Positions 5,778 to 9,830 of a stretch of 64,000 nt of DNA are shown here, piece by piece. This DNA is from Amphirosellinia nigrospora (taxonomy: Eukaryota > Ascomycota > Sordariomycetes > Xylariales > Xylariaceae), in contig SCHM01000002.1 in the NCBI GenBank assembly GCA_004123355.1, positions 10,823,569-10,887,568 of the forward strand. Reading direction: 5' to 3'. The notes under the pieces are model-generated. The model did not search any database and was not told the DNA's origin. It saw only the letters and a list, made by a program, of their open reading frames with translations. Every line of letters begins with the position of its first letter. Within the stretch, counting starts at the first letter, position 1. The translations under genes and the position numbers were made by a program.

Positions 5778-7354
5778 TTAAACATCAGCCATCAACGCTT
5801 CCGTCTCAAAAAGACTTGCTAAGTCATCTTCCATGATCGGTTCGCCCTCAGACTGCAACTTAGCAGCAACCTTTTCAACATCACCCCAAACGCGGAGGAT
5901 GTTGCCGCCGACGATCTTGGCTGCATCGGCATCCGATACTCCACGACGCAGCAGCTCTGCAATGAGATCCGGGTACTTGGAGACATCACCAAGGCCCTCG
6001 GGCGTACTCTGGATGCCGTCAAAGTCACTACCGAGACCCACATGATCGTATCCGATCAAGTCTCCGATGTACGTGATGTGGTTGGCGACGTGGGACAGGG
6101 TGTTGTTAGCCGGGTACAAGTCTGGCACTCCGTTCGGATTGTTGTTATCTACACAGCTCACAAAGTCGGGTGAGAAGTTGACTGTTTATGTTAGCACTTG
6201 GCAGTTTTAGGTCGAGCGCAAGGTCATGTATTCTCTCTTGTAGAGAGCAGGAACCGAAGCAAAGAACTTACTCATGACGACCGAGTTCCGCTCCTTGACG
6301 AGCTGAAGAACATGGTCCGGGACATTACGAGGGTGTGGGCACACAGCATATGCGGAGCTATGGCTGAAGATAATAGGTGCCTTGCTACCAGCCCATCCCC
6401 CGGAGCCGCCACCGAGCACATCCACCATGGTATCGACGCTCGTGTGAGACAAGTCGACGATCATGCCGATGCGGTTCATCTCGTTGATGAGCTGCCTGCC
6501 CTTGAGAGAGACGCCGCCCCAGTACGGCGGCGCCTTGTGGAACGGGTTCTCCCAGAGCGCGGCGTCCGCGTAGATGTTTCCGCAGTTGTGCGTCAGAGTC
6601 GCGTAGCGGACGCCCAGGGCGTAGAACCTGCGCAGGTTGGCGGGCGAGTTGCCTATCTGGTGCAGGCCCTCGATACCTAGCGGCGAGACCAGCTTGCCTT
6701 TTTTGAAGGCCGCCTGGGCTGAGTCGCTGTCCACAATGCCTGAGAAAGTGTCGGGATACGCGGCTTGCAGCCGTGTCATCAGGTCGATTTGTTGCAGCGT
6801 GAACTGGACACCTTGTATCTCATGAGACAGGTTGATCTACTTGGGGAAGAGTTGAGCGGACTCACTGGCGAGGTAGTTTTCAGTTGAGTAGTCTGAGCCG
6901 TTGGCCGGGCAGGGCGTAAATACACTCCAGAAGGCACCGCCGTTTTGGCCTTCCCTTAATCGGGGAAGGTCGACGTGCGAGGCAAAACCTCCCTTTGTGA
7001 AGGGTTCGGTGAAGTTCTCGCCATAAATGTGGTTGTTGTACACGACCCGGATGAGGATGGCCAGATCATTGTGTCCGTCTGTCATGGCGATTAGTAAGTC
7101 ATTGACCATTGTAGACTTATCATCACATCGGGATTCCACGGACCTATCAATGGTGTCTCTGACAGAATGGTATGTACTCTTTCTTCGATAGACATCGGGC
7201 GGGGGCGTTTGTAGCCATAGCATGGCGACCTGGGGTGAAGCAACGACCCGAGGATGATGAAGATAAAGGCGGACGCTATGAAAACCTTGACAATCGACCA
7301 TCGGGGGCGAGGCTGTCTCGTAACCTCGTCGTCGAGAATCCCCTTTTCAGCCAT
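5778..7354 (-). CDS. Membrane dipeptidase (peptidase family M19)
   Basis: Exons 7144-7354, 6866-7078, 6272-6811 and 5778-6181 join in frame to 455 residues. Residues 19-40 form a single N-terminal membrane anchor (type II orientation likely, because basic residues precede it). The M19 zinc-site motifs follow: DGHNDLA near residue 71, DLSHTS, FSHSSAYA and SDFDG in the C-terminal half. The family hydrolyses dipeptides, including beta-lactam-like dehydropeptides, with two zinc ions. In fungi these proteins sit at the plasma membrane or vacuole or are secreted. Which dipeptide this one uses cannot be told. The first intron has an unusual donor (GTCCGT), but the joined D-G-H-N-D motif supports it. 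All four exons are free of stops. Confidence 0.88.
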
Positions 7355-8072: not shown

Positions 8073-8169
8073 TGGTCAGTATGGGGGTCGAACCCATGAC
8101 CTTCGCATTACTTAGTACAGTGGAATTCTGTATTAGTACGACGCTCTAACCAAACTGAGCTAACCGACC
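8073..8169 (-). tRNA. tRNA-Ile(AAU), with the usual tRNA intron
   Basis: The minus strand folds as a cloverleaf. The acceptor stem GGTCGGT pairs with ACTGACC (one G-T pair), the D arm is GCTC/GAGC, the anticodon stem TCGTA pairs with TGCGA, and the T arm is ATGGG-TTCGACC-CCCAT. The anticodon loop reads CTAATA plus A, so the anticodon is AAU (inosine-34 in the mature tRNA), which decodes isoleucine. A 22-nt intron sits after position 37, the standard place for tRNA endonuclease splicing. A T5 terminator follows at 8060-8064 on the minus strand. The D loop has one T more than the second copy at 9680-9830. Confidence 0.92.
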
Positions 8170-9679
8170 AATTGATTGTTAGAGATCTGAAGCTTTTATC
8201 GGAATCCTGACAGCACAGTAGCACCGTTCTCTCATTCATCACTTTCAACGTCTGTCACAACATACTGAGAATACTTGAATCATGCAGGCTTCGGATTGTT
8301 TTGATGCTATGCTCAAGCATCGCCTTGTTAAAATGAGCACATTGAATCCTACCCAGTAGTCGACACCCGATGTCAACATGCCTGCCGATGTTGAATACGA
8401 CCAGCATCAAACTATCGCAACACTTCTCTCAGGCGAAGCATTGCTCGGCGTTTTGCGGAGGCAGCCGCCACCTAATCGGGACAGCATGAACTTGCCTTGC
8501 TTGTTGAATTCTTCGATAACCGGGATCGCCCAGTCATTACGAGAAGGAGGACTTCGCTTCCATTCTGGCTAATAAACTTGAAGTCTTCTATGCCGCAGAG
8601 ACAAGCCTTTCGAACCAAGATAGCACACGCCGGCCAAGTTTATCGAAGTTGTGATCAGTCCGCCTGATAAGAAAATCAAAATTTGCCTAGAATTCGATAC
8701 GGAAGGTCAATGTCTAAAAGAATCATACTCATCATTGATCATCCAGCAGCTATATTTTATGCGAAACCGGCACTCATCCGCGAGATCACTATGCGCCTCG
8801 ACGCTGGGCTCAACATGATTCTCTAGTTACTCGGCAAGAAGTACACAGTTGACTACTTTCTCAGAGAAGGATCCATCTTTCACTATACTCGCTGGACACC
8901 TAATGGCTTTCAGTATGGCCTGAATGGAGCACCACTAGCAGAATTGCATGCTCATAGGAAACAAGAAACCAACTCGGGGAAGCACTTGAAAATTAGCTGC
9001 TATTCTGCTCTGTTCCTCGAGTGGGCGGCAAGCTATTTAGGGAGGATCCGAATTCGATTCTACAACGAGGCTTGTCGCTTGCCAACGCCATACAAGACAA
9101 GATCAGTGCTAAAATTAGTCATAAAAGCCGAATTCGGACACAAAAATTGGCTGGTCGTTGCCTCAATGATCACGATTCTGGGTCTACTGAAGCACCAAGT
9201 AGTGCTCCCATCTCTGATCAAAGCAGACAACAATCCAGCCAACGCCAAGCGACAGAGAACTCGGAATCAGTGACGTCAAGCTCATTCTCCCCCGGGGAAT
9301 AATGCAATCACTTCAATGGTTGACGCAAACGATTGAAAAGGGGAAGGAGTTTGCAGATTGGAGCAGTCACTTTGCACAATTGTCACCCTATCAACTGTTG
9401 TCAAGAGAACGTGAGATGGCCGTTGCAAAAGCACTTTTTACCCTACGACTTCAAAATATTAACGAGGCTCTTGATGAAAACGAGCGGGATAAAAGAGACC
9501 AAACATAGAGAACGCTCTCCGGGTCAAGCTCCATAGTGTTCGCAAGAAATACGGGGTGGTGATCTAACCAAGACGCCGCAAACATGCAACTGCATCGACA
9601 GACCCAGCGAAATTGATGAACCCATAGAGAAAAATAAACTCTAGGAAAAGGAGGCAAAATTTTCAAAAAGAGAGTTAAA
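8170..9679. other. Decayed sequence between two tRNA-Ile genes
   Basis: About 1.5 kb with interrupted protein-like stretches on the plus strand, for example near 8378-8570, 8740-9060 (with an in-frame stop around 8820) and 9302-9508 (a helical, charged frame). I do not recognise the protein. The stretches change frame and carry stops, so this looks like a broken gene or transposon remnant and not an active one. The short bases just outside each tRNA gene are similar (ATTGATTGTTA upstream, an AAAATTTT and A5 run downstream), which suggests that the tRNA and its flanks were duplicated together. Confidence 0.4.
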
Positions 9680-9830
9680 TGGTCAGTATGGGGGTCGAAC
9701 CCATGACCTTCGCATTACATAGTACAATGGAATTTTGTATTAGTACCTATGGTGGTGGGTTAGCAATGATCATGGAATGCTGAAGATGAGGAAGAACATA
9801 CGACGCTCTAACCAACTGAGCTAACCGACC
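9680..9830 (-). tRNA. tRNA-Ile(AAU) copy with a second, intron-like insert
   Basis: Every arm matches the copy at 8073-8169: the same acceptor stem, anticodon AAU, T arm and a T5 terminator (9665-9669). It also has a standard 22-nt tRNA intron (9716-9737) after position 37. In addition, the 5' strand of the anticodon stem is split by a 55-nt insert (9747-9801). Without the insert the gene would be a normal tRNA. With it, the internal promoter boxes are still intact (A box region TAGCTCAGTTGG, B box GGTTCGACCCC), but the distance between them is stretched to well over 100 nt. Whether a functional tRNA is made depends on removal of the insert. If it is not removed, this copy is a pseudogene. 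Confidence 0.8.
9747..9801 (-). other. 55-nt spliceosomal-intron-like insert inside a tRNA gene
   Basis: Read on the minus strand, the insert begins GTATGT, has a pyrimidine-rich 5' part, a branch-site match TTGCTAAC about 14 nt from the end, and ends CATAG. Those are the signals and the length of the protein-gene introns in this window. Exact removal (GCGTC|GTACTAATA) restores the anticodon stem of the sister tRNA gene. A GTA triplet lies at both edges, so a 3-bp target-site duplication is also possible. Standard tRNA introns lie only after position 37 in nuclear genes, so this is not one of those. Confidence 0.65.

Follow-up and report, generated by a model that had tools for sequence, protein, structure and literature searches.

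A gene for transfer RNA (tRNA)-Ile with anticodon AAU, at positions 9680-9830 of a 64,000-nucleotide (nt) stretch of the genome of Amphirosellinia nigrospora (G000:C4:10823569-10887568, hereafter the window), carries a 55-nt insert in addition to the ordinary tRNA intron, and we read this insert, with a probability of roughly 0.85, as a U2-type spliceosomal intron in a gene transcribed by RNA polymerase III (Pol III). In the genome searched (48.1 Mb in 11 contigs), at least seven tRNA introns appear to be of this kind, two in tRNA-Ile(AAU) and five in tRNA-Lys(CUU) genes, along with one in a U6 gene. The type of intron is ordinary, but the host gene, a nuclear tRNA gene, is not. The parts of the gene, its terminator and its sister gene in the window, with the basis of each assignment in brackets, are as follows.

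9680-9830, minus strand: tRNA-Ile(AAU) gene with two introns of different kinds (direct reading, parsing and comparison with a paralogue)
9802-9830, minus strand: 5' exon of 29 nt, tRNA positions 1-28, containing the A box (parsing)
9747-9801, minus strand: 55-nt spliceosomal-type intron at 28/29, GTATGT ... GCTAAC ... ATAG (signals and a paralogous 52-nt insert)
9738-9746, minus strand: middle exon of 9 nt, positions 29-37, with the anticodon AAU (parsing)
9716-9737, minus strand: ordinary 22-nt tRNA intron at 37/38, with the internal stem TACAA/TTGTA (parsing and fold)
9681-9715, minus strand: 3' exon of 35 nt, positions 38-72, with the B box GGTTCGACCCC (parsing)
9680, minus strand: discriminator base (parsing)
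9665-9669, minus strand: run of five T, a Pol III-type terminator (direct reading)
8073-8169, minus strand: sister tRNA-Ile(AAU) gene with the ordinary 22-nt intron and without the 55-nt insert (sequence comparison)

The A box TAGCTCAGTTGG and the B box GGTTCGACCCC of the gene at 9680-9830 are both intact, and their starts lie 122 nt apart, or 67 nt when the insert is taken out. The insert ends 13 nt past the branch A of GCTAAC, and its boundary slides across a GTA repeat in four equivalent registers, one of which is GT-AG. The mature tRNA obtained after removal of the insert is the same as that of the sister gene at 8073-8169 except that the D loop is one T shorter. An earlier note on this DNA had described a spliceosomal-type insert within a tRNA-Ile gene, whose removal restores the anticodon stem of the sister and which leaves the ordinary intron, the internal boxes and the terminator in place, and this description held throughout; none of 400,000 shuffles of the insert reproduced its signals, and the insert has relatives in the same genome.

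A DNA search with the gene returned seven matching pieces, among which, beside the gene itself, one (C4:4204260-4204407) spans the whole query including the insert, at 93%. This paralogue carries a 52-nt insert (GTATGT..ACTAAC..CTAG) at the same 28/29 site, and its flanks are by eye unlike those of 9680-9830. The mature tRNAs of the two genes are identical (73/73), the two inserts agree at 49 of 52 positions with a 3-nt gap, and the ordinary introns agree at 18 of 22; the comparison of exon differences with all intronic differences gave a Fisher p value of 0.013. In a score test, 0 of 1,000 shuffles reached the score of the two inserts, whether these were taken whole or between donor and branch site. 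The ordinary intron has kept its stem despite changes, the paired strands being TACAG/CTGTA in the sister gene, TACAA/TTGTA in 9680-9830 and TACGG/CTGTA in C4:4204260-4204407. The tRNA-Ile(AAU) family comprises five loci, all on C4 (5/5 candidates scored): the two insert-bearing genes, the sister gene, a damaged copy at C4:7535923 and a truncated copy at C4:1204314. The insert is present in two of the three undamaged genes found. Scanning for CTAATA with a B box after it yielded seven matches, in comparison to two in the control; four of the seven are the Ile family loci with a B box, and three are apparently unrelated. The program ARAGORN assigned the two Ile genes with inserts to His and Leu, and the sister gene to Tyr in one run and Thr in another.

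Five further inserts were read by eye in the T stem, at 52/53, of tRNA-Lys(CUU) genes (L063, L068, L075, L076 and L077). A search with the tRNA family reported L068 as one match spanning 136 nt, L075 to L077 as three odd matches of 55 nt and L063 as a 54-nt match below the cut-off, and L063 was first noticed through a split DNA match; ARAGORN made no Lys call at any of the five. A further DNA search found nine Lys(CUU) loci (17/17 candidates scored), of which three are uninterrupted, five carry an insert and one, L113, is decayed. The five inserts, 55 to 63 nt long, all lie at a single T-arm site. The exons agree with the uninterrupted Lys genes at 72 of 72 positions in L075 and L077 and at 71 of 72 in L068, and over the ten pairs of insert-bearing genes 68 to 72 exon positions agree. 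By percent identity, the whole inserts of five pairs fell below, two at and three above the 95% level of shuffles; this comparison was superseded by the score test, in which the whole inserts beat the shuffles in seven of ten pairs (0 to 17 of 1,000 shuffles reaching the score). When the donor and the stretch from branch site to end were removed, none of the ten pairs beat the shuffles (107 to 957 of 1,000 reaching the score), so the likeness of the Lys inserts sits in their splice signals, and they therefore resemble old spliceosomal introns of paralogues. The score test thus strengthens the argument for the Lys genes.

The best match to U6 (C4:5776774-5776924, 68.9 bits) contains a 51-nt insert, GTAAGC..ACTAAC..CAG, between ACAGAGAAGAT and TAGCATGG, which places it in the catalytic stretch of the RNA. 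A diverged second U6-like gene, L101 (C4:10119272-10119370, 67.4 bits), lacks the insert; it carries CCAGAGAGG where ACAGAGAAG is expected, together with a T run. At L100, adjoining the U6 gene, there is a stretch which, by eye, we take to be like the start of 5S ribosomal RNA, and which the family scan of L100 left unreported.

Taken over the eight inserts (two Ile, five Lys and one U6), which measure 51 to 63 nt, the donor GTRWGY was present in 8/8, exactly one RCTRAY with its branch A 9 to 13 nt before the end was likewise present in 8/8, and the acceptor YAG was present in seven, both Ile inserts included. With 400,000 shuffles per insert, the number that combined GTRWGY, RCTRAY at 6 to 36 nt from the end and YAG was 0, 1, 1, 4, 0, 1, 2 and 1 for the eight inserts, the 0 of the insert in 9680-9830 among them, although L068 itself fails the YAG part of the test. 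These motifs agree with the published consensus of fungal introns, GTRWGT, RCTRAY and YAG with a branch distance of 6 to 36 nt (PMC5832005, available portion), the donor having also been given as GURWGY (PMC12403724, available portion). Exact removal of each insert restores a functional exon, as judged from uninterrupted paralogues for the tRNAs and from the family consensus for U6, with small exon defects besides in L063 and L076. Four introns inferred from the open frames of protein genes in the window have the donors GTGAGT, GTAAGT or GTAAGC, and the open frame of a peptidase M19 gene stops at the one inferred at 6182-6271; since the same motifs served to pick these introns, nothing more follows from them than the presence of such introns here.

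The inserts leave the A and B boxes unbroken. The B box GGTTCGACCCC is complete in all seven insert-bearing tRNA genes, the A box reads TAGCTCA in 6/7, the starts of the two boxes lie 99 to 122 nt apart, and T runs follow downstream in 7/7. The Lys inserts end in AG before GTTCGACCCC, and the junction thus restores the B box. In predicted folds, the spliced forms of L068, L075, L076 and L077 take up a cloverleaf, spliced L063 a weaker one, and the fold of the spliced Ile forms resembles that of the sister gene without the insert. With the insert left in, L063, L076 and L077 are predicted to lose the T arm, and Ile 9680-9830 most of its arms; since L068, L075 and Ile C4:4204260 retain most arms in the unspliced state, folding alone is not decisive.

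An observation of a different kind concerns the region downstream of the tRNA-Lys(CUU) genes at L011 to L013, L068, L075 to L077 and, more weakly, L063, where a trailer consists of CTCAATTCCYGATGCC, a hairpin, GCAAC and a T run. The hairpin is common to Lys genes with and without the insert, and four of its seven pairs have changed on both sides (7 of 8 genes, L063 excluded), which none of 500 shuffles reached. This conserved trailer may represent another small RNA, or an element for processing, within one transcript. By eye, some of its letters are common to the four best-kept insert-bearing copies and distinct from those of the uninterrupted ones, which fits a single gain of the intron before the copies multiplied.

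Judging from these features, Pol III would transcribe the insert-bearing tRNA genes from their A and B boxes, and the spliceosome would act on the short transcript, recognizing GURWGY, RCURAY and YAG and taking out 52 to 63 nt. The removal would rebuild the anticodon stem in Ile and the T stem in Lys, as the comparison with uninterrupted sister genes shows for the sequence of these stems. In Ile, tRNA endonuclease would additionally remove the ordinary 22-nt intron at 37/38, and since the insert breaks the anticodon stem the spliceosome would probably act before it. The Lys intron is most likely old, having been gained once before the copies multiplied, after which all but the splice signals would have drifted. 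On balance we lean towards a wider view, in which the spliceosome is a regular enzyme of tRNA maturation in this fungus, needed by two tRNA families at two different sites, and in which the precursors of tRNA-Ile(AAU) pass through two unrelated splicing machines, the spliceosome first for the anticodon stem and the endonuclease second.

Several results weigh against the spliceosomal reading. Both tRNAs also have copies without the insert (one undamaged in Ile and three in Lys), and the function of the interrupted ones is therefore not strictly needed. When only the 52 insert positions are counted, the contrast between Ile exons and inserts falls short of significance (p = 0.07). The acceptor of L068 is AAG, and the three of ten pairs of whole Lys inserts that were not above shuffles even with the signals each include L068. 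Some of the insert-bearing Lys copies may be decaying: the exons are damaged in L076 (71/71 and a 1-nt gap) and L063 (69/71 and a 1-nt gap), and the A box of L063 is altered to TAACTCA. The decayed L113 (starting at C1:12141474) keeps GTGAGT after GCGG, and no 3' exon was seen by eye in 281 bases. Two pattern scans for further cases gave results at chance. A scan for inserts adjacent to a B box gave 21 matches in comparison to 17 in the control, seven of the 21 being the tRNA-Val anticodon; this pattern is blind to the Lys site, where the last letter of AG doubles as the first G of the B box. Another B-box scan gave 68 matches, among them the already known L063 and L077, in comparison to 65 in the control. 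One match of the 21, in a tRNA-Arg(ACG) gene, has an ordinary 37/38 intron, and three tRNA-Phe genes likewise have ordinary introns.

The damaged members of both families (L063, L076, L113, Ile C4:7535923 and C4:1204314) and the functional-looking uninterrupted sisters would also suit the view that the interrupted genes are dead copies, pseudogenes struck by chance insertions and never processed, as the earlier note had allowed for the Ile gene. We consider this quite improbable, for the signals are far above chance and are the only part conserved among the Lys inserts; the mature Ile sequences are identical at two loci whose inserts and ordinary introns differ, three of the five Lys genes match 71 to 72 of 72 exon positions, and boxes, trailers and T runs are retained. 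In addition, the insert is found in two of the three undamaged tRNA-Ile(AAU) genes, though ATT and ATC make up 3.9% of 4,338 codons in nine open frames of the window, in comparison to 3.55% for GTT and GTC, which are read by a tRNA-Val(AAC) with at least seven genes in our tRNA census. The census is a lower bound, as the best 63 of 1,644 candidates were scored and the known gene at 8073-8169 was missed, and one DNA search scored 40 of 133.

We rate as very improbable the reading that the inserts are tRNA-type introns at ectopic sites, of the sort found in Cyanidioschyzon merolae, where tRNA endonuclease cuts a bulge-helix-bulge that lies outside 37/38. The inserts do lie at 28/29 and 52/53, away from the endonuclease intron site 37/38, which is the rule for eukaryotic nuclear tRNA introns, some algae excepted. 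In a weak test, no consistent bulge-helix-bulge was seen among them: in the GT-AG register, the pairs of the 4-base-pair central helix number 2 and 3 in the Ile genes and 4, 0, 1, 1 and 0 in L068, L063, L075, L076 and L077, although four known 37/38 introns themselves form only 1 to 3 of 4. Cutting by the endonuclease would account neither for GTRWGY, RCTRAY and YAG nor for these alone being alike among the Lys inserts. It would be more surprising still if the tRNA-like sequences were parts of RNA polymerase II (Pol II) transcripts, with the introns serving those and not tRNA maturation. Such transcripts, which the sequence allows, would supply normal cap-coupled splicing, but by eye the seven loci have different upstream flanks, the part in common being the tRNA gene (with the trailer in Lys), and the Pol III boxes and T runs are retained.

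With respect to the origin of the inserts, the earlier note's suggestion of an introner-like element found no support. An introner would be present in many near-identical copies, but a search with the Ile insert at E values up to 10 returned only itself and the paralogous tRNA-Ile gene (2/2 candidates scored), and the Lys inserts are unlike one another between donor and branch site; the genome search for copies that the note had proposed thus yielded one paralogous tRNA copy and none forming an introner family. The repeat at the insert ends is GTA in Ile, GT in Lys and absent in U6, and could be due to chance; introners have target-site duplications of 3 to 9 base pairs, though not in all families (PMC9860276, available portion). 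Reverse splicing is a possible origin of the Ile insert. In other species, exact patterns gave no match in viral_contigs or genome_contigs, collections of viruses and prokaryotes.

Among known systems, the fungal U6 intron is alike in that a spliceosomal intron interrupts a Pol III transcript that is short and structured, and the U6 gene described here has one too, but U6 sits in the spliceosome; a tRNA is no part of the spliceosome and must also fold for tRNA-processing enzymes. Ordinary nuclear introns at 37/38 are represented in the Ile genes by the retained 22-nt intron, and differ from the new inserts, which lie at 28/29 and 52/53 and have splice-site motifs. U6 is a Pol III transcript, and in fission yeast its gene has an intron of the messenger RNA (mRNA) type thought to stem from reverse splicing (PMC10484740, available portion), so that, with the U6 insert found here, the note was wrong to say that no Pol III transcripts are known to be substrates of the spliceosome. 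According to the available portion of a 2017 paper (PMC5832005), frequent interruption is known, among small structured RNAs, for U3 and U6 alone. The introns of fungal U3 small nucleolar RNA share with our inserts the GT-AG ends, RCTRAY, a small structured RNA as host and the presence of interrupted and uninterrupted copies per genome, and differ in the host RNA. In red algae and cryptomonad nucleomorphs, ectopic tRNA introns also lie outside 37/38, in the D, anticodon or T arm, but are described as having a bulge-helix-bulge or no defined motif, and GT..branch..AG signals are not described for them in the portions of the literature available. The sequence-similar introns and stwintrons of Hypoxylaceae and Xylariaceae (PMC8469720, PMC12403724 and PMC9024468) are likewise cases of intron gain, maybe in the same order, since an ITS/5.8S stretch on contig C10 of the genome searched looks like that of Xylariales, but form repeated families in protein genes, as far as the available texts go, which the tRNA inserts here do not; the term tRNA is not mentioned in the available main texts of these three papers. 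Our search of the open-access literature found no description of a nuclear tRNA gene with a spliceosomal intron.

The inserts reveal a class of genes that the tRNA finder misnamed or missed. As read from their sequences, the mRNA-splicing machinery of this fungus probably matures some of its tRNAs too. If true, this would join two routes of RNA processing thought to be separate, spliceosomal splicing and tRNA maturation, and the spliceosome would be able to act on Pol III precursors of about 125 to 150 nt besides U6, with the interrupted and uninterrupted sister genes providing a natural system in which to ask how.
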